Shown here: positions 4,101 to 49,085 of the stretch, piece by piece
Position numbering within the stretch: the first letter of the stretch is position 1
Layout of the letters: the number at the start of each line of letters is the position of its first letter
Origin: Rhodospirillales bacterium
Lineage (GTDB): Bacteria > Pseudomonadota > Alphaproteobacteria > Rhodospirillales > Shumkoniaceae
Assembly: GCA_014859895.1 (NCBI GenBank)
Contig: JACZKS010000170.1
Coordinates: 1 to 64,000 of the forward strand
Direction of reading: 5' to 3'
DNA: 64,000 nucleotides
Position numbers and translations under genes: made by a program
The notes under the pieces: generated by a model
What the model saw: only the letters and a program-made list of their open reading frames with translations
Database searches by the model: none
What the model was told of the DNA's origin: nothing

Positions 4101-4958
4101 TCAGGCCACCAGCTTGGCGATGAACGGCGGCAATGCGAAGGCGGCGGCGTGCACCGCCGGGCTGTAGTAGCGGGTGGAAAACCCGGTCCTGGCGAAGCGT
4201 GGGGCCAGATCGGCCTCGGTCAGTTTGCGCAGGCCGGCGTCGTCGGTCGCCCAGCCCAACGCCATGAAGCCTCCCACGTAGGTCGGCACCACCACCAGAT
4301 AGCAGCTGACGTCGGCGAAATGCGGCTTGAGCCGCCGGCCGCAGCGGGCCAGCTCCTGGGGCTGGAAATGGGGCACGCCGTTCTGGGTGACAACCAAGCC
4401 ACCCGGGGCCAGCCGCTTCTTGCAGTCGGCATAGAAGGCCTCGGTGAACAGCCCCTCGCCGGGGCCGGCCGGATCGGTCGAATCGACGATGATGAGATCG
4501 AAGGTTTCCGTGGTCTCGGCGACGAAGCGGATGCCGTCGCCGATCGTGACCTGGGCCCGCGGATCGTCGAAGGCGCCGGCGCTTAACGACGGCAGATACT
4601 GGCGGCAGAGATCCACCACCGTGCCGTCGATCTCGACCAGGCGCACCTGCTCGACCGGATGGCGCAACACCTCGCGCAGGATGCCACCGTCGCCGCCGCC
4701 GATGACGAGCACCCGCTTCGGGCTGCCAAGGGCGAACAGCGGCACGTGGGCCAGCATCTCGTGATAGACGAACTCGTCCTTCTCGGTCGCCTGGATGACG
4801 CCGTCAAGCGCCAGCACGCGGCCGTGGTGCGGCGTCTCGAAGATGACCAGTTCCTGGAAATCGGTCTGTCGCCGAACCAGTTCGCGCAACACATAGAAGG
4901 TCTGCGCGTACCCTTCGTGGGAGGGGTCCGCGTAGAGCGCCTCGGTGAACCACGTCAC
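4101..4958 (-). CDS. speE: Spermidine synthase SpeE
   Basis: A 285-residue polyamine aminopropyltransferase. It transfers an aminopropyl group from decarboxylated S-adenosylmethionine to putrescine. Visible motifs: N-terminal beta domain (WFTEALY, LALDGVIQATEKDEFVYHEM), the nucleotide loop VIGGGDGGILREVLRH, and VDSTDPAGPG carrying the catalytic Asp of the D-x-x-D-P motif. The start is GTG at 4958 and overlaps the stop of speD by 4 bp, so the two pathway enzymes are translationally coupled. Length is normal for the family. Confidence 0.96.
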   Translation of the reverse strand: MTWFTEALYADPSHEGYAQTFYVLRELVRRQTDFQELVIFETPHHGRVLALDGVIQATEKDEFVYHEMLAHVPLFALGSPKRVLVIGGGDGGILREVLRHPVEQVRLVEIDGTVVDLCRQYLPSLSAGAFDDPRAQVTIGDGIRFVAETTETFDLIIVDSTDPAGPGEGLFTEAFYADCKKRLAPGGLVVTQNGVPHFQPQELARCGRRLKPHFADVSCYLVVVPTYVGGFMALGWATDDAGLRKLTEADLAPRFARTGFSTRYYSPAVHAAAFALPPFIAKLVA

Positions 4959-5838: not shown

Positions 5839-5959
5839 GGGGCCCCGGCCCTCCGATTTTGCGTCGTGCGACCCGGCAGAAGTTGGTAGGGTCGGCCGCC
5901 GCGTCAAGCTCCCTTCCCTTTTTACCCGCCGCCAGGGCGGCCAGCCGAGATCGTCGACC

Positions 5960-6853
5960 ATGCCCCATTCGCCGGAACGTCGAGCCTATCTGCTGCTGGC
6001 CGCCGTCATCGTCACTTGGGGCGTCAACTGGCCGATCATCAAGTTCGGGCTGGCCTATATCACGCCGTTATGGTTCGCGGTGGCCCGCGCCCTGCTGGGA
6101 GCGGCCTGCCTGTTCCTATTGATGGCAGCGCGCGGGCGGGTCCGCCTGCCGCGCCGCGCCGACCTCGGCCTGCTGCTATCGGTGGGGGTTCTGCAGATCG
6201 GCGTCAACCTGGCCCTCGTCCATGTCGCGGTCCAGCTCATCGAGGCCGGCCGTTCGGTCATCCTGGCCTACACGACGCCGCTATGGGTGACGCCGCTGGC
6301 CGCTGTCTTCCTTGGCGAACGGCTGAGCCTGCGCAAGGTGGCGGGGGTCGGCTTGGGGGTGGCCGGCCTCGCTGTCCTGTTCGGTCCCTCGGCCGCCATT
6401 TTCGCCGACCCGGCCGGACTGCTCGGCAACAGCCTGCCGGTGCTGGCGGCGATGATCTCGGCGGGCACAATCGTCCATGTGCGCGCGTGCGGCCGCTCGG
6501 TCAACGCCTTCGACCTGGCGCCCTGGCAGATGCTGGCCGGCGCCGCCGTCGTCCTGCCCGCCGCCCTGGTCATCGAGGGCCCGCCGGCGGTCCAGTGGTC
6601 GGCCACGCTGGCTATCGTCCTCGCTTACAACGGTGCGCTCGCCACCGCCTTCGGCCTATGGGCCTACGTCGTCGTGATGCGTGATCTGCCGGCGGTCAGC
6701 ACGGCGGTCGGTTCGCTGGGTGTGCCGGTGGTCGGCCTGCTGGCCTCGGCCGTCATCCTCGGCGAGCCGCTGTCACTGGACAAAGGGCTCGGCCTCGCGT
6801 TGATCGTCGCCGGCGTGCTGGTGGTGACAGTTTTCCATTCCCGCCGCGCCTGA
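5960..6853 (+). CDS. EamA/DMT family transporter
   Basis: A 297-residue protein with ten predicted membrane helices arranged as two EamA repeats (about residues 8-138 and 150-290). The signature WGVNWPIIKFG near the N-terminus and TPLWVTPLAAVFLGERLSL at the end of repeat 1 are typical. Members export amino acids or other metabolites; the substrate cannot be told. The start ATG 5960 follows the region divergent from bolA; an upstream extension lacks similarity. It stands alone. Confidence 0.85.
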   Translation: MPHSPERRAYLLLAAVIVTWGVNWPIIKFGLAYITPLWFAVARALLGAACLFLLMAARGRVRLPRRADLGLLLSVGVLQIGVNLALVHVAVQLIEAGRSVILAYTTPLWVTPLAAVFLGERLSLRKVAGVGLGVAGLAVLFGPSAAIFADPAGLLGNSLPVLAAMISAGTIVHVRACGRSVNAFDLAPWQMLAGAAVVLPAALVIEGPPAVQWSATLAIVLAYNGALATAFGLWAYVVVMRDLPAVSTAVGSLGVPVVGLLASAVILGEPLSLDKGLGLALIVAGVLVVTVFHSRRA

Positions 6854-6896: not shown

Positions 6897-7493
6897 ATGG
6901 CCAAAGGACGAGCCAGACCCTTCAACGGCTATACGCCGGGCGTTGAGGCGTTTGCGCATGCGCGCGCCCACGAACGCTCGTGCGACTGGCCGGGATGCGA
7001 GCGCCTCGGCGAACACCGGGCGCCGAAGTCGCGTGACCGCCTCGATGCCTACAACTGGTTCTGCCTGGAACACGTGCGGCTTTATAACGCCGCCTGGAAC
7101 TATTACGAGGGCATGAGCGAGGAGCAGATCGAGGCGGAAATCCGCCGCGACACCATCGGCCGGCGGCCGACCTGGCCGTTCGGCGTCCGCCCGTCGGGCC
7201 TCCGCTTCACCCGCCGTGGCGGCGGCGATCCGTTCGGCCTGTTCGAGGAAGAGGCCGACGCCGGCCCCCGGCAGGCGCCGCCCCATCGTCACGAGGCCGG
7301 CTCGGCCGCGGAGGAGGCGCTGATCGTGCTTGACCTCAAGCCGCCGGTCACGGTGGATGCGGTCAAGGCCCGCTACAAGCAGCTGGTCAAACGCCATCAC
7401 CCCGACGTCAATGGCGGCGACAAGGCGTCGGAAGAGATGTTCAAGCGCATCAACCAAGCCTATCATACCATCATGCAGAGCCTTGCGCCGTGA
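6897..7493 (+). CDS. J-domain (DnaJ-like) protein
   Basis: A 198-residue protein whose J-domain is at the C-terminus (about residues 138-198), with the HPD tripeptide in LVKRHHPDVNGGDKASEEMF. The N-terminal part has a Cys/His-containing segment (CDWPGCERLGEHRAP and WFCLEHVRLYN) conserved in alphaproteobacterial members of this group and possibly metal binding. J-domains stimulate DnaK-type Hsp70. It sits 93 bp before cobS, an arrangement seen in many alphaproteobacteria, but a link to cobaltochelatase assembly is only inferred. Confidence 0.85.
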   Translation: MAKGRARPFNGYTPGVEAFAHARAHERSCDWPGCERLGEHRAPKSRDRLDAYNWFCLEHVRLYNAAWNYYEGMSEEQIEAEIRRDTIGRRPTWPFGVRPSGLRFTRRGGGDPFGLFEEEADAGPRQAPPHRHEAGSAAEEALIVLDLKPPVTVDAVKARYKQLVKRHHPDVNGGDKASEEMFKRINQAYHTIMQSLAP

Positions 7494-7586: not shown

Positions 7587-8594
7587 ATGACCGCGTCCGC
7601 CTCGATCCACCACGCCGACACCAGCTTCCCGCTGGACGCCCCCGACATCATGGTTTCGGTACGTCAATGCTTCGGCGTCGACAGCGACATGGAGGTGCCG
7701 GCCTTCAGCATGGGCGCCGAGTACGTTCCCGACGTCGACGAGGCCTACCAGTTCGACCGCGACACCACGCTGGCCATTCTGGCCGGCTTCGCGCGCAACC
7801 GCAGGGTGATGATCCAGGGCTATCACGGCACCGGCAAGTCGACCCACATCGAGCAGGTGGCAGCCCGCCTCAACTGGCCGTGCATCCGCGTCAATCTCGA
7901 TTCCCACGTCAGCCGTATCGATCTCATCGGTAAGGACGCCATCGTGCTCCGGGACGGCAAGCAGGTCACCGAGTTCCGCGAGGGCCTGCTGCCGTGGGCG
8001 CTCCAGCATCCCACCGCGCTGGTCTTCGACGAATACGACGCCGGGCGTCCCGACGTCATGTTCGTCATTCAGCGGGTGCTGGAAGTCGAGGGCAAGTTCA
8101 CGCTTCTCGACCAGAACCGGGTCTTGCGGCCGCACCCCTATTTCCGCCTGTTCTCGACCACCAACACGGTGGGCTTGGGAGACACCACCGGGCTGTATCA
8201 CGGGACCCAGCAGCTCAATCAGGGCCAGATGGACCGCTGGAATATCGTCGCCACGCTGAACTACCTGCCGCACGACGACGAGGTCGCCATCGTGCTGGCC
8301 AAGGTGCCGTCGCAGTGCGGCGCCCAGGGGCGCGAGGAAGTGGCCGCCATGGTGCGGGTCGCGGAGCTGACGCGCAGCGGTTTCATCAACGGCGACATCT
8401 CGACCGTGATGAGCCCGCGCACCGTCATCACCTGGGCGGAGAACAGCGAGATTTTCGGCAATCGCGGCTTCGCTTTCCGGGTGACCTTCCTCAACAAGTG
8501 CGACGAGTTGGAGCGGCCGATCGTCGCCGAGTACTACCAGCGCTGCTTCGGGGAAGATCTGCCCGAATCGCTGGCCAACGCCACCGCCGTCTGA
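7587..8594 (+). CDS. cobS: Cobaltochelatase subunit CobS
   Basis: A 335-residue AAA+ ATPase. The Walker A loop [13 protein letters not shown] is near residue 80, Walker [10 protein letters not shown] near 148, and a sensor region [13 protein letters not shown] follows. With CobT it forms the chaperone-like ATPase that drives CobN to insert cobalt into hydrogenobyrinic acid a,c-diamide, a late step of aerobic adenosylcobalamin synthesis. cobN is not in the window. It is followed 29 bp later by cobT. This is the chelatase CobS, not the cobalamin synthase also called CobS in enteric bacteria. Confidence 0.96.
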
Positions 8595-8623
8595 GGACGG
8601 CCGAGGAAACCCGGACGGAGCCC

Positions 8624-10486
8624 GTGAGCCAGAGCGACGATCCCCGCGACACCGTGAAGCGCGTCACGACCGCCTGCCTGAAGGCGGTGGCCGACTGCGG
8701 CGAAGTGACCGTCGAGTTCGTCCACGGCAACCCCGGGGCGTCGGAGACGACCGCCCGCCTGCCGGCCCCCTCTCGTCGTCTCACCCGCGAGGAACTGACC
8801 CGCCTGCGCGGCACGGCCGACGCCTTTGCTCTCAAGATCCGCTATCACGACGAGGCGGTGCACCGCCGCCGCCTGCCCACCGGCTTCCAGGCCCGGCACC
8901 TGTTCGACACCATCGAGCAGATCCGGGTCGAAGCCATTGGCGCTCGCGACATGGCGGGCGTCGCCCAAAACCTCGCCTTCCGGCTGGAGGAAACCTGCCG
9001 GGCCGGCGGTTTGGCCGAGGTCGCCGGCAAGGACGACAGCCAGTTGGCCGATGCCCTTCATTTGCTGGTCCGCGAGCGCCTCACCGCCGCGCCCCTGCCC
9101 GCCGCCGCCGCCGGACTGGCCGACCTCTGGCGACCGTGGCTCGGCCAGCGCATCGGCCCCCTGCTGGCCCGCCTGCACGATCGCATGGACGACCAGGAGG
9201 ATTTCGCCTCGACCGTGCGCGAGATGATGCACGCCCTCGAGATCGCCGAGGAGACCGACCTGCCGCCCGAGCCCGACGAAGAGGCCGAGGACGACGGCAC
9301 CGCGCAGAACCAGCCGCCCCCTCAATCCCGGGGCAGCGAGCAGGACAGCGACATGCCGCTGCCCGGCGAGGGCGAGGAGGCCGAGGAATCCGAAGACGGC
9401 GAGGGCATGTCGATTTCTGAACAGGACCGCATGGTCGAGGGCGGCGACGACGAGATGCCGGCCGGCCCGGCCCGCTGGCAGTCACGGCTGCCCAACAACG
9501 GGCTCACGTCCGAGGATTCCTACAAGGTTTACACCACCCGCTTCGACGAGGTGATCGAAGCCGACAAGCTGACCGAAGCCGAGGAGTTGACCCGCCTGCG
9601 TGCCCATCTCGACCAGCAGCTTTCCCATCTGCAGGGCGTGGTGTCGACGCTGGCCAACCGCCTGCAGCGCCACCTGATGGCCAAGCAGACCCGCTCCTGG
9701 GTGTTCGACCTCGACGAGGGAATCCTTGATGCCGGACGGCTGGCCCGCATCGTCATCGATCCCGTGCATCCGCTGTCCTTCAAGCGCGAATCCGACATCA
9801 ACTTCCGCGACACCGTGGTGACGCTCCTGATCGATAATTCGGGCTCGATGCGCGGCCGGCCCATCACCGTGGCGGCCATGAGCGCCGACATCCTGGCCCG
9901 CACGCTGGAGCGCTGCGGGGTAAAGGTCGAGATCCTGGGTTTCACGACGCGCGCCTGGAAGGGCGGCGACTCGCGCGAACAGTGGGTCGAGGCCGGCAAG
10001 CCCAAGAACCCGGGGCGGCTCAACGACCTCCGGCACATCGTCTACAAGGCGGCCGACACCCCCTGGCGACGGGCCCGGCGCAACCTGGGATTGATGCTGA
10101 GGGAAGGGCTGTTGAAGGAGAACATCGACGGCGAAGCCCTGCTGTGGGCCTTCAACCGGCTGATGGCGCGCCCCGAGCAGCGGCGCATCCTGATGGTGAT
10201 TTCCGATGGCGCGCCGGTCGACGACGCCACGCTGTCGGCCAATCCCGGCAACTATCTGGAACAGCACCTGCGCGACGTCATCGCCTGGATCGAGTCCCAC
10301 TCCCTGGTCGAGCTCACGGCCATCGGCATCGGCCACGACGTCACCCGCTACTACAAGCGGGCCGTCACCATAGCCGACGCCGAGGAACTGGGCGGCACCA
10401 TGATGAAAAACCTCGCCGATCTCTTCGACGAGGATGCCGGCGGGCGCGACCCCCGCGCCCTGCGGCGGGGGGCCCGATTCCACTAG
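8624..10486 (+). CDS. cobT: Cobaltochelatase subunit CobT
   Basis: A 620-residue partner of CobS. An N-terminal helical part is followed by a long acidic linker (about residues 205-280, many Glu/Asp) and a C-terminal von Willebrand A domain with the metal-ion-dependent adhesion site DNSGSMRG near residue 405. This resembles BchD of magnesium chelatase. The GTG start at 8624 has GGAG just upstream; the frame remains open far into cobS but without similarity. It functions with CobS and CobN in cobalt insertion. Confidence 0.95.
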
Positions 10487-44824: not shown

Positions 44825-45721
44825 ATGCCGTTCTCCGCCGCCCCGCCTCCCCTCTCGGACAACGTCAAGGGCATCCTGTGGATGCTGGCAACCGCCGTCC
44901 TGCTGACCGGAACGGCGGCCATCAGCAAGTACCTGGGCCGCACCCTGCCGGTGGTCGAAATCGTCTTCTTCCGCATGGCGTTCGGCGCCCTGGTCATGCT
45001 GCCGTGGCTGCTGCGCCACGGCCTCCGCGGCCTCGCCACCCGGCGCCTGGCCACCCATTTCTGGCGCTCGATCCTGGGCGTCGGCGCCTTCGTGCTTTAC
45101 ATCTACGCCGTCAGCAACATGCTGCTCGCCAACGCGGTCGCCCTGGCCTTCTCGACGCCGCTGTGGATGATCGTCATGTCGCACCTGATGCTGGGCGAGC
45201 GCGCCGGGCTGGCCCGCGGCCTCGCCACCGTCACCGGCTTCATCGGCATCCTGGTCATCGCCCGGCCCGACATCGAGATCAGCCTGCCGGCCATGGCGGC
45301 GCTGGCCAGCGCCTTCCTGTTGTCGATCGCCATGATCTACGTGAAGCGCCTGTCGGCCACCGAATCGCCGATCAAGCTCGCCTTCTACGTCCAGTTCTTC
45401 GGGGCCGTCTTTACGATTCCCTCGACCGCGCTGGCCTGGCAGGCGCCGAGCGCCATCGAATGGACCTGGCTGACCGTTATTGGCGTGATCGGCGCCCTCG
45501 GCCTTGTCACCCAGGCCCGCGCCTACGCCATCGGCAACCCGACGGCGGTCACGCCGGTCGATTTCACCCGGCTGCCCATCGCCGTGCTGCTCGGCATGGT
45601 CTTTTTCGGCGAGCTGCCGGATCTCTGGGCTTTCGCCGGCATGGCCCTGATCGTCGGCGCCATCCTGTTCATCTCGCGCCACGAACGGCATCGCCGCCGC
45701 AACGAAAGCGAGCCTTCCTGA
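44825..45721 (+). CDS. EamA/DMT family transporter
   Basis: A 298-residue protein with ten membrane helices in two EamA repeats (about residues 14-145 and 158-290). Typical sequences: FFRMAFGALVMLPWLLRHG, ALAFSTPLWMIVMSHLMLGE and AVTPVDFTRLPIAVLLGMVF. The latter resembles RhaT/YdcZ-type exporters of unknown substrate. Met 44825 is 19 bp after the pyrD stop, so it may be co-transcribed. It is not a close copy of the exporter at 6 kb. Confidence 0.87.
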   Translation: MPFSAAPPPLSDNVKGILWMLATAVLLTGTAAISKYLGRTLPVVEIVFFRMAFGALVMLPWLLRHGLRGLATRRLATHFWRSILGVGAFVLYIYAVSNMLLANAVALAFSTPLWMIVMSHLMLGERAGLARGLATVTGFIGILVIARPDIEISLPAMAALASAFLLSIAMIYVKRLSATESPIKLAFYVQFFGAVFTIPSTALAWQAPSAIEWTWLTVIGVIGALGLVTQARAYAIGNPTAVTPVDFTRLPIAVLLGMVFFGELPDLWAFAGMALIVGAILFISRHERHRRRNESEPS

Positions 45722-45761
45722 ACGCCTTGTCGGGGTCCCGTATTTGGTATAGCTTGTCCAA

Positions 45762-45993
45762 GTTCCTGGTGTTCGACGCAAGATATTGTGGAGAACGGCA
45801 ACAGGGAATCCGGTGCGAATCCGGAACTGACGCGCAGCGGTAAGGAGGAACAAGAGCCGCAGGCGGTGTCGAGCCATCGATGCCGCAGGCACTGGTCGAC
45901 GGATCGGGAAGCCGCGGTTCAAGGCCCACCCCAAGCGTCCGGGATCACCCGGCGCCAGGGGTTCGCCTCCAAGTCCGAAAACCTGCCGGGAAC
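45762..45993 (+). ncRNA. Adenosylcobalamin (B12) riboswitch upstream of nrdD
   Basis: The conserved core is clear: GGGAATCCGGTGCGAATCCG at 45804-45823, then ACTGACGCGCAGCGGTAAGG, and the 3' B12-box-like GTCCGAAAACCTGCC at about 45973-45987. GTTCCTGG (45762-45769) can pair with CCGGGAAC (45986-45993) to close the aptamer. The extended peripheral arm is typical of alphaproteobacteria. When adenosylcobalamin is ample the B12-dependent class II reductase can work and the B12-independent class III enzyme downstream should be switched off. Confidence 0.92.
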
Positions 45994-45995
45994 AT

Positions 45996-46022
45996 GAACC
46001 GCGACAACCGTACGCGCGGTTC
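45996..46022 (+). promoter_or_regulatory. Hairpin in the riboswitch expression platform
   Basis: GAACCGCG (45996-46003) and CGCGGTTC (46015-46022) form an 8-bp stem directly after the aptamer. It has no T-run, so it is more likely part of a structural switch or Rho-linked control than an intrinsic terminator. The nrdD Shine-Dalgarno (GGAGAGGAAGGG) is about 100 bases further on. Confidence 0.45.
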
Positions 46023-46137
46023 GGCGTTCGGGCCTTCGCGATCTGGGGCCACGGAGCCGTGGGTGTCGCCTTGCTGCACCCGCGTTTCCCTTCCCTTCGC
46101 GCGTTCCCGCCGCCGACCCGCGACGGAGAGGAAGGGA

Positions 46138-48180
46138 ATGTCCATGAACGAAAAAGACCGGCCGGCCGCATCCCGTTTCGTCCCCGGGCAAGTCATCAAG
46201 CGGGATGGCCGCGTGGTGCCATTCGAGGGCGAGCGCATCGTTTCCGCGGTGCGTCGCGCCGGCGAAGCCTCGGGCGAGTTCGGCGAAGAGGAGGCGCGCT
46301 TGCTCACCGCCCAGGTGCTGAAGGTGCTGCGCCACCGTTTCGAGGCCGGAGCCCCCGCCATCGAGCAGATCCAGGACATCGTCGAGCAGGTCCTTATCTC
46401 GGCCAATCATTTCAAGACGGCGCGTGCCTACATCGTCTATCGCGAGCAGCACGGCAAGCTGCGTCGCGACCGCCAGACCCTGGTCGACGTCGCCTCGTCC
46501 ATCAACGAATACCTGGAACGCGCCGACTGGCGGGTCAACGCCAACGCCAACCAGGGCTATTCCCTGGGCGGCCTGGTGCTGAACGTATCGGGCAAGGTGG
46601 TCGCCAATTACTGGCTCAGCCACGTCTACCCGCCCGAGGTCGGCGTGGCGCATCGTGACGGCGACCTGCACATCCACGACCTCGACATGCTGTCGGGCTA
46701 TTGCGCGGGCTGGTCTCTGCGCTCGCTGCTGCTCGACGGCTTCAATGGCGTCCCCGGCAAGGTCGAGGCCGGGCCGCCCAAACACCTGTCCAGCGCCGTC
46801 GGCCAGATGGTCAACTTCCTGGGCACGCTTCAGAACGAATGGGCCGGCGCCCAGGCGTTCAGCTCGTTCGATACCTATCTGGCTCCCTTCATCCGCAAGG
46901 ACGGACTTTCCTACGACGAGGTCCGCCAATCCGTCCAGGAGTTCATCTACAACCTCAATGTGCCGTCCCGCTGGGGCACCCAGACGCCGTTCACCAACAT
47001 CACGCTCGATTGGGTGGTGCCCGAGGATCTGCGCGAACAGGCCCCGGTCATCGGCGGTAAGGAAATGCCCTTCACCTACGGCGAGTTGCAGCCCGAACTC
47101 GACCTCATCAACCGCGCCTACATCGAGGTGATGATGAAGGGCGACGCCAAGGGGCGCGTCTTCACCTTCCCGATCCCCACTTACAACATCACCAAGGATT
47201 TCCCCTGGGACGGCCCCAACACCGAGCGGCTGTTCGAGATGACGGCCAAATATGGCCTGCCCTACTTCCAGAACTTCCTGAATTCGGACCTGGAGCCGGG
47301 CATGGTGCGTTCCATGTGCTGCCGGCTTCAACTCGACCTGCGCGAGCTCATGAAGCGCGGCAACGGACTGTTCGGATCGGCCGAGCAGACCGGCTCCATC
47401 GGCGTCGTCACCCTCAATTGCGCCCGGTTGGGCTATCTCTTCAAACACGACGAGGCGGGCCTCCTGGCCCGCCTCGACACGCTGCTGGCGCTTGCCCGCA
47501 CCAGCCTGGAAATCAAGCGCAAGGTCATCCAGCGCCACCTGGACGCCGGCCTATTCCCCTACACCAAGCGCTATCTGGGACACCTGCGCAACCATTTCTC
47601 GACCATCGGCGTCAACGGCATCAACGAGATGATCCGCAACTTCACCGATGATACCCACGACATCACCGACGATTTCGGCCACGCCATGGCCTGCCGGCTG
47701 CTCGACCATGTGCGCGAGCGCATGATCGGCTTCCAGGCGGAGACCGGGCACCTTTACAACCTCGAGGCCACGCCCGCCGAGGGCACCACCTACCGGCTCG
47801 CCCGCGAGGACCGCAAGCGCTTTCCAGACATCCTCCAGGCGGGAACGGCCGAGGCCCCCTACTACACCAATTCCTCGCAATTGCCGGTCGGCTTCACCGA
47901 CGATCCCTTCCTGGCGCTGGAGCACCAGGAGCCGCTGCAATCGCGCTACACCGGCGGTACCGTCATGCACCTCTACATGGGCGAGCGGATATCCAGCGCC
48001 GAGGCCTGCAAGACCCTGGTCCGCCGGGTGCTGGAACGGTTCCGCATCCCCTATGTGACGATCACGCCAACCTTCTCGATCTGCCCGGTGCACGGCTATC
48101 TGGCCGGCGCCCAGAAGTTCTGTCCGAAATGCGACGCCGACATCCTCGCCCGCAAGCGGGCCGAGGCGGCCGCCGCCTGA
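46138..48180 (+). CDS. nrdD: Anaerobic ribonucleoside-triphosphate reductase, large part lacking the glycyl-radical domain
   Basis: A 680-residue class III ribonucleotide reductase. An N-terminal ATP cone (about residues 18-105, VIKRDGRVVPFEGERIVSAV) precedes the ten-stranded barrel, with substrate-site Cys in SGYCAGWSLRSLL and MVRSMCCRLQLDL. The zinc site is at the very end: C649, H652, C662, C665 in SICPVHGYLAG and FCPKCD. Normal NrdD continues about 20-40 residues further with the radical Gly in an RVxGYxRP motif; here the protein stops at 680. That motif is found in the next gene. Start at ATG 46138 with GGAGAGGAAGGG upstream, under riboswitch control. Confidence 0.95.
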   Translation: MSMNEKDRPAASRFVPGQVIKRDGRVVPFEGERIVSAVRRAGEASGEFGEEEARLLTAQVLKVLRHRFEAGAPAIEQIQDIVEQVLISANHFKTARAYIVYREQHGKLRRDRQTLVDVASSINEYLERADWRVNANANQGYSLGGLVLNVSGKVVANYWLSHVYPPEVGVAHRDGDLHIHDLDMLSGYCAGWSLRSLLLDGFNGVPGKVEAGPPKHLSSAVGQMVNFLGTLQNEWAGAQAFSSFDTYLAPFIRKDGLSYDEVRQSVQEFIYNLNVPSRWGTQTPFTNITLDWVVPEDLREQAPVIGGKEMPFTYGELQPELDLINRAYIEVMMKGDAKGRVFTFPIPTYNITKDFPWDGPNTERLFEMTAKYGLPYFQNFLNSDLEPGMVRSMCCRLQLDLRELMKRGNGLFGSAEQTGSIGVVTLNCARLGYLFKHDEAGLLARLDTLLALARTSLEIKRKVIQRHLDAGLFPYTKRYLGHLRNHFSTIGVNGINEMIRNFTDDTHDITDDFGHAMACRLLDHVRERMIGFQAETGHLYNLEATPAEGTTYRLAREDRKRFPDILQAGTAEAPYYTNSSQLPVGFTDDPFLALEHQEPLQSRYTGGTVMHLYMGERISSAEACKTLVRRVLERFRIPYVTITPTFSICPVHGYLAGAQKFCPKCDADILARKRAEAAAA

Positions 48181-48194
48181 CAAAGGAGTTTTCG

Positions 48195-48389
48195 ATGCAC
48201 GGTTCCGTTACCGATTCCAACCTTTCTGAAATCCGCCTCTCCGACGAGGAACGTCGGCCCTGCGAGATCTGGACCCGGGTCATGGGCTATCATCGCCCGA
48301 TCAGCGAATTCAATCCGGGGAAGAAGAGCGAACAGGCCGAGCGCCTTGCCTTCCGGGAACCCGGCTTGGCGCCCGCCGCCGACCGCTAG
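48195..48389 (+). CDS. Stand-alone glycyl-radical domain of class III ribonucleotide reductase
   Basis: A 64-residue protein. CEIWTRVMGYHRPISEFNPG places Gly31 in the NrdD radical motif (RVxGYxRP...N-x-GK), followed by KKSEQAERLAF as in the C-termini of full-length NrdD. It has its own Shine-Dalgarno (AAAGGAG, 48182-48188) and ATG, in a different frame from nrdD, 14 bp after its stop. It should dock on NrdD and carry the radical made by NrdG, as GrcA does for pyruvate formate-lyase; GrcA itself has a different motif. The stop is directly followed by the nrdG start. Confidence 0.88.
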   Translation: MHGSVTDSNLSEIRLSDEERRPCEIWTRVMGYHRPISEFNPGKKSEQAERLAFREPGLAPAADR

Positions 48390-49085
48390 ATGGCGGCCGA
48401 CGACTTGGTGGTGGGCGGCATGGCACCACTCACCACCGTCGACTACCCGGGCCGGCTGGCGGCCGTGCTGTTCTGCCAGGGCTGCCCATGGCGCTGCCCC
48501 TACTGCCACAACCCGCACCTGCTGGGACGGCAAGCCGAGCATCCTGTGCCATGGGACGACGTCCGGGCTTTCCTGGGAAAACGGTGGGGATTTCTCGACG
48601 CCGTGGTGATCAGCGGCGGCGAGCCGCTGCTCCAATCCGCCATCATCGACGCCGTTGCCGCCATCAAGGACATGGGCTTTGCCGTCGCCCTGCACACCGG
48701 AGGGGGCCATCCCGACCGCCTGCGCCAACTGATGCCCAACCTCGACTGGGTGGGGTTCGACGCCAAGACGGCGTTTGACGCCTATGCCGGGGTCACCGGC
48801 ATCGCCGCCAGCGGCGAGGCGGCGGCGCTGAGCCTGGCCGAGGTGGTGGCCGCCGGCATCGACTACGAAGTCCGCACCACCGTCGACGAGACCCTGGTGA
48901 GCCGCGACGATCTGCTGCGCCTCGCCGACGATCTGGCCAGCCGCCAGGTACAGACGTGGACCCTTCAGGAATGCCGGGAGACCGAAATAGCCAACCGCCT
49001 TCCGGAGATCGCGCTGCTGGACGACGGTGCTTTCCTCGAGCGCCTGGCTGGCCGCTTCGACGGCTTCACCGTGCGGCGGGCCTGA
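48390..49085 (+). CDS. nrdG: Anaerobic ribonucleotide reductase activating protein NrdG
   Basis: A 231-residue radical SAM activase. The [4Fe-4S] motif CPWRCPYCHNPHLLG has the C-x3-C-x2-C spacing; VVISGGEPLLQ is the GGE SAM motif. TTVDYPGRLAAVLFCQGC is typical of the NrdG/ThnB-like group. It makes the glycyl radical, here presumably on the separate 64-residue protein. Zero bases separate it from that gene. Convergent with glnS, 2 bp apart. Confidence 0.93.
   Translation: MAADDLVVGGMAPLTTVDYPGRLAAVLFCQGCPWRCPYCHNPHLLGRQAEHPVPWDDVRAFLGKRWGFLDAVVISGGEPLLQSAIIDAVAAIKDMGFAVALHTGGGHPDRLRQLMPNLDWVGFDAKTAFDAYAGVTGIAASGEAAALSLAEVVAAGIDYEVRTTVDETLVSRDDLLRLADDLASRQVQTWTLQECRETEIANRLPEIALLDDGAFLERLAGRFDGFTVRRA

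Follow-up and report, generated by a model that had tools for sequence, protein, structure and literature searches.

Does the cobalamin aptamer in front of an anaerobic ribonucleotide reductase operon in this genome act as a switch, and in which direction would it turn the genes? We analyzed a 64-kb stretch of DNA (64,000 nucleotides, hereafter the window), along with the remainder of the genome and those of its relatives. In our reading, to which we assign a probability of about 0.87, a cobalamin riboswitch represses translation of an operon consisting of nrdD, a glycyl-radical gene and nrdG, with both cobalamin binding and repression being predicted.

A cobalamin aptamer before a split class III reductase

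A cobalamin riboswitch had been proposed for this site, and the RF00174 (Cobalamin) covariance model located one. The match spans the full length of the model (189 positions) and scores 83.0 bits (E 6e-19) relative to a gathering score of 31.5 bits, and RF00174 was the sole Rfam family above its own gathering score in the 64-kb window. The conserved core and the B12 box are both present in the alignment to model positions 1-189, and the P5 hairpin sits inside a 47-nt core that resembles E. coli riboswitches. The original prediction put the start at 45762, which is exact because the closing stem is formed by 45762-45770 and 45985-45993, and its spacing of 145 bp before nrdD corresponds to the 144 nt that separate this stem from the first ATG at 46138. 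The riboswitch stands directly before a B12-independent reductase. The features of the aptamer and operon are as follows:

45750-46004, plus strand: cobalamin riboswitch aptamer (RF00174), covariance-model match
45762-45993, plus strand: aptamer within its closing stem (strands 45762-45770 and 45985-45993), from the minimum-energy fold and the Rfam alignment
45809-45825, plus strand: P5 hairpin with loop L5 at 45814-45820 (UGCGAAU), from fold and position
45971-45987, plus strand: B12 box AAGUCCGAAAACCUGCC, from sequence, aligned to the RF00174 3' core
46138-48180, plus strand: nrdD, catalytic part of the class III reductase, starting at 46138 or at the in-frame ATG 46144
about 48195-48389, plus strand: glycyl-radical-domain gene, an ORF with the motif RVMGY and 64 residues from the ATG at 48195
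48390-49085, plus strand: nrdG, radical-SAM activase (TIGR02495, 184.4 bits; cut-off 131.15)

Profile matches likewise confirmed that the anaerobic reductase is split, as had been claimed, and gave nrdD, a separate glycyl-radical ORF and nrdG. PF13597 and ATP-cone domains are found in NrdD, whose match to NF006126 scores 1136.9 bits and which resembles known class III reductases among solved structures. The glycyl-radical end is missing from it and is encoded instead by the small ORF at 48195-48389 that matches PF13597 profile positions 530-561 (27.8 bits). This small gene lies between nrdD and nrdG, and its product had no convincing match among solved structures (best E 0.28, unrelated). A motif search of the window's closest kin (L026-L105, the best 80 of 563 nrdD loci) found the glycyl-radical motif on a frame apart from nrdD in 76 of 80 loci and fused to it in three (L040, L062 and L072), while L099 ends too early to tell. 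A long ORF (45880-48180) that would make the leader coding was rejected, because it crosses the aptamer, with the match to the NrdD family beginning at 46189. No title on a split class III reductase was found in the literature searched, whose coverage excludes most subscription journals. In the available portions of three papers, "split" concerns a class II reductase (PMC9669993), a phage enzyme formerly taken for a split class II (PMC9531940) and phylogenetic networks (PMC4390871); no "split" passage was found in the available portion of PMC4493059.

A class II NrdJ was predicted to occur in the same organism, and the genome search recovered two, on contigs C30 and C187 (TIGR02504, 581.9 and 563.2 bits), the larger of which scores 2197.2 bits with NF005736 as well. 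TIGR02504 has one more match, on contig C74: a class I NrdA (NF005544, 1680.6 bits) followed by nrdB. The genome also encodes MetH, which is the B12-dependent counterpart of MetE. The RF00174 search of the genome returned four sites, located before nrdD, metE, nrdAB and a TonB-dependent receptor gene, and none near either nrdJ gene. The sites outside the window are:

L021 (G000:C74), 7069-7284 and 9885-10119, minus strand: two cobalamin riboswitches (RF00174)
L022 (G000:C95), 4544-4758, minus strand: fourth cobalamin riboswitch, before the TonB-dependent receptor gene

On C74, metE and class I nrdAB adjoin, each with its own cobalamin riboswitch upstream, which repeats the arrangement proposed for nrdD. 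The receptor encoded on C95 resembles siderophore and B12 receptors, yet falls below the cut-offs of those models. A copy of RF02940 (COG3860 RNA) occurs about 1.9 kb from one nrdJ gene (L024, G000:C30, 1332-1385, plus strand, 72 bits). Two cobaltochelatase subunits, CobS (7587-8594, 610.9 bits) and CobT (within 7994-10486, 805.5 bits), are encoded in the window as had been noted; the further statement that they show cobalamin synthesis by the organism itself was too strong, since those two genes alone were confirmed.

Competing folds in the nrdD leader

Folding of the leader between the aptamer and nrdD gave four hairpins:

45996-46022, plus strand: hairpin directly 3' of the aptamer (region 45994-46024: z -2.80, 1 of 200 shuffles equally stable)
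46023-46058, plus strand: putative P13 hairpin, with a putative L13 segment UUCGCG at 46035-46040
46059-46083, plus strand: hairpin separating P13 from the RBS hairpin
46086-46138, plus strand: hairpin sequestering the ribosome-binding site (RBS), 46086-46094 with 46130-46138 and inner stems to 46122

The region of the RBS hairpin (46084-46142) has a z of -2.93, with 2 of 200 shuffles equally stable, and the putative P13 alone shows no unusual stability (region 46020-46062: z -1.28, 24 of 200). Computation gives this leader two competing folds. The lowest-energy structure of 45994-46160 (-76.5 kcal/mol) places the ribosome-binding site within hairpin 46086-46138. When 46128-46138 is kept free, the best fold is -69.5 kcal/mol, and the 3' side of P13 (46045-46048 and 46053-46056) together with L13 (46037-46041) pairs with 46086-46101, which is the 5' arm of the RBS hairpin. 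These open-form pairings are in the minimum-energy fold of transcripts ending at 46100, 46110, 46120 and 46130, and the closed form takes over in the minimum-energy fold of the transcript ending at 46140. Among 300 dinucleotide shuffles, the ribosome-binding site is hidden equally well in 23 and the arm trapped equally well in 24, with a single shuffle doing both. The form that wins varies with the 5' end given to the RNA: a start at 46005 favors the open form by 2.8 kcal/mol, and a start at 45994 favors the closed form by 7 kcal/mol. The leader of the sister genome (G001) folds less clearly and gives the closed form no advantage, its RBS being 0.55 unpaired in the full leader versus 0.01 in the window, and the folding comparison showed no clear counterpart to the RBS hairpin in leaders L014, L038 and L040.

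Six pairs are possible between L5 (UGCGAA) and 46035-46040 (UUCGCG), in the expected place. Out of 2000 shuffles, the same pairing was reached by 121 for the window, 114 for G001, 825 for G004, 94 for L038, 519 for L040 and 743 for E. coli btuB, which served as the positive control; because even btuB is so commonly matched, this kissing-loop test is a weak one, and the L5-L13 pairing does not reach significance by itself. In L038 both sides differ from those of the window, yet still pair (UGAGACU with GGUCUCG). Since shuffles often reach such a pairing, that of E. coli btuB included, the L5-L13 step is one that we infer.

In the published btuB-type model, as given in the available portion of PMC10653944, L5-L13 pairing stabilizes P13 and thereby promotes the RBS hairpin. 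Applied to nrdD, bound cobalamin would let L5 pair with L13 and hold the P13 hairpin, upon which the RBS hairpin would form and nrdD would be off. When cobalamin is missing, P13 would open, and its 3' side and L13 would capture the 5' arm of the RBS hairpin as that arm is transcribed; through this pairing the ribosome-binding site would emerge free, and nrdD would be on. With plentiful B12 the cell would then rely on NrdJ, and under scarcity the B12-free reductases would be made.

Repression might instead act by ending transcription in the leader, either Rho-dependently or intrinsically, rather than by hiding the RBS. Termination is used by some cobalamin riboswitches, such as that of Priestia megaterium metE (PMC10653944, available portion), and Rho action would be compatible with the sequence of the nrdD leader. 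We consider this unlikely, however, given that the sole terminator-like site in 45500-46300 is at 45581-45600, inside the upstream gene, with none in the leader, and that the last leader hairpin takes in the ribosome-binding site, with no U run following. The promoter scan of 45500-46300 found no promoter-like site. It is distinctly improbable that the nrdD aptamer is a decayed remnant and that control of nrdD has been lost. Its 83 bits are the weakest of the genome's four scores (the other three reach 114.6-118.4 bits), and it shows non-standard pairs and long insertions in the variable arms of the model, but the core and B12 box are retained, the platform has a two-state layout, and the aptamer is kept before nrdD in the sister genome G001 (81.7 bits) and in G004 (72.9 bits). 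An activating switch, in which cobalamin turns nrdD on, has a described precedent in the corrinoid riboswitch of Alkalihalobacillus halodurans cobT (PMC10653944, available portion). For nrdD we regard it as highly improbable, as the closed form adopted by the window's full leader buries the RBS with P13 formed, which is a repressing layout, and nrdD encodes the B12-free isoenzyme in genomes with NrdJ. Repression by B12 is the best reading of the nrdD leader, and plentiful B12 most likely shuts these genes off, to judge from the sequence.

The nrdD riboswitch and NrdJ across relatives

Sixty genomes, that of the window among them, were searched for the nrdD family, which scored above cut-off in six, the other five being G001, G003, G004, G041 and G045. 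Each of the four order relatives with both nrdD and NrdJ (G001, G003, G004 and G041) carries RF00174 upstream of nrdD, and G045 has nrdD with no NrdJ and no RF00174 match. The G045 genome (L012), of the same order, is 0.9 Mb in size, is rated 100% complete and has a split nrdD.

A wider scan of named genomes used the best 80 of 563 nrdD loci, a set that overlaps the first in that L072 is a contig of the order relative G003, a Rhodospirillales MAG from the same family as the window's genome. A riboswitch precedes nrdD in 13 of these 80 (L027, L038, L040, L044, L048, L056, L062, L063, L072, L078, L083, L088 and L090). NrdJ was counted when single or joined matches reached at least 450 bits; matches of 344-408 bits and weaker or partial ones were left out, the class I NrdA of the window's genome scoring 398.1. 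Across these best 80 of 563, NrdJ occurs in 13/13 riboswitch genomes versus 37/67 others (Fisher p 0.0014, kinship ignored). Dropping the six loci with less than 600 nt upstream leaves 34/61 others (p 0.0028, kinship ignored), and additionally accepting the partial matches in G062, G063 and G089 as NrdJ gives 37/61 (p 0.0067, kinship ignored). At the tool's own cut-off, 31 + 23 = 54 of the 80 genomes are NrdJ-positive, leaving 41/67 others. Among the relatives, a riboswitch before nrdD is associated with the presence of NrdJ. Afifella pfennigii (L027) has a second cobalamin riboswitch (5891-6090), which lies after nrdG and, as judged by position, before nrdA. That the RF00174 match is a chance resemblance has nothing found in its favor and a negligible probability, given an E-value of 6e-19 in 64 kb and the recurrence before nrdD in 13/80 (best 80 of 563 loci) and in 4/4 order relatives with nrdD and NrdJ.

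Ancestry and comparison with known systems

The nrdD riboswitch shares RF00174, above the gathering score, with the metE, nrdA and TonB receptor riboswitches of its own genome. The B12 box of those three is AGCCAGGA(A/G)ACCUGCC and that of the nrdD riboswitch is AGUCCGAAAACCUGCC; the metE and nrdA riboswitches (two of the three) have GGGCGGGGUGUC after the aptamer, whereas the nrdD riboswitch is without such an element. In a quick tree of 85 NrdD rows, three riboswitch-type labels, sorted by eye, need 3 changes, and 0 of 200 shuffles were as low. The fork of the window, G004 and L038 has an SH-aLRT of 88 and is drawn open; L040, with the same label, is placed elsewhere, and L078 and L083, of another label, fall outside the main clade of that label. 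Because the nrdD riboswitch differs from the other three of its genome and riboswitch type tends to follow nrdD clade, these comparisons weakly suggest that riboswitch and operon were acquired as one cassette.

We lean narrowly toward a broader reading, in which the B12-repressed operon would yield a two-polypeptide class III reductase whose glycyl protein of about 64 residues could be replaced alone, and in which the operon and its btuB-like riboswitch would be a cassette passed between lineages, giving the genome two differently built kinds of riboswitch over two B12-independent reductases. The nrdD locus would extend the rule that B12 represses the B12-free isoenzyme to an operon with a split reductase; metE and both B12-free reductases of the genome each have a cobalamin riboswitch of their own. 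The resulting prediction is a sharp one, namely that plentiful cobalamin would leave DNA-precursor synthesis to NrdJ alone.

The 47-nt core is 91.5-93.6% identical to annotated E. coli riboswitches in five rows among the matches listed, and it has a match in 5373 of 5426 E. coli genomes (5194 records at 90-95% and 179 at 80-90%). The match that was retrieved is the cobalamin riboswitch before btuB. As in that riboswitch, L5 is UGCGAAU and UCGCG lies in the loop of a downstream hairpin; unlike in btuB, where a transporter gene is controlled, the platform in the window is longer and the L13 and RBS hairpins differ in sequence.

The rule cited in the original prediction, that B12 riboswitches precede B12-independent isoenzymes where a B12-dependent one also exists, is in print for nrdDG. 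According to the available portion of Rodionov et al. 2004 (PMC545781), Desulfovibrio vulgaris and Desulfuromonas carry B12 elements ahead of nrdDG, NrdJ occurs in every delta-proteobacterium studied, and the B12-independent isoenzyme would be subject to inhibition by B12. The present locus is a new example of this known arrangement, with a riboswitch before class III genes, NrdJ in the genome and a proposed repression by B12. It differs in that its genome is alphaproteobacterium-like, its nrdD is split, and further riboswitches stand before class I nrdAB and metE.
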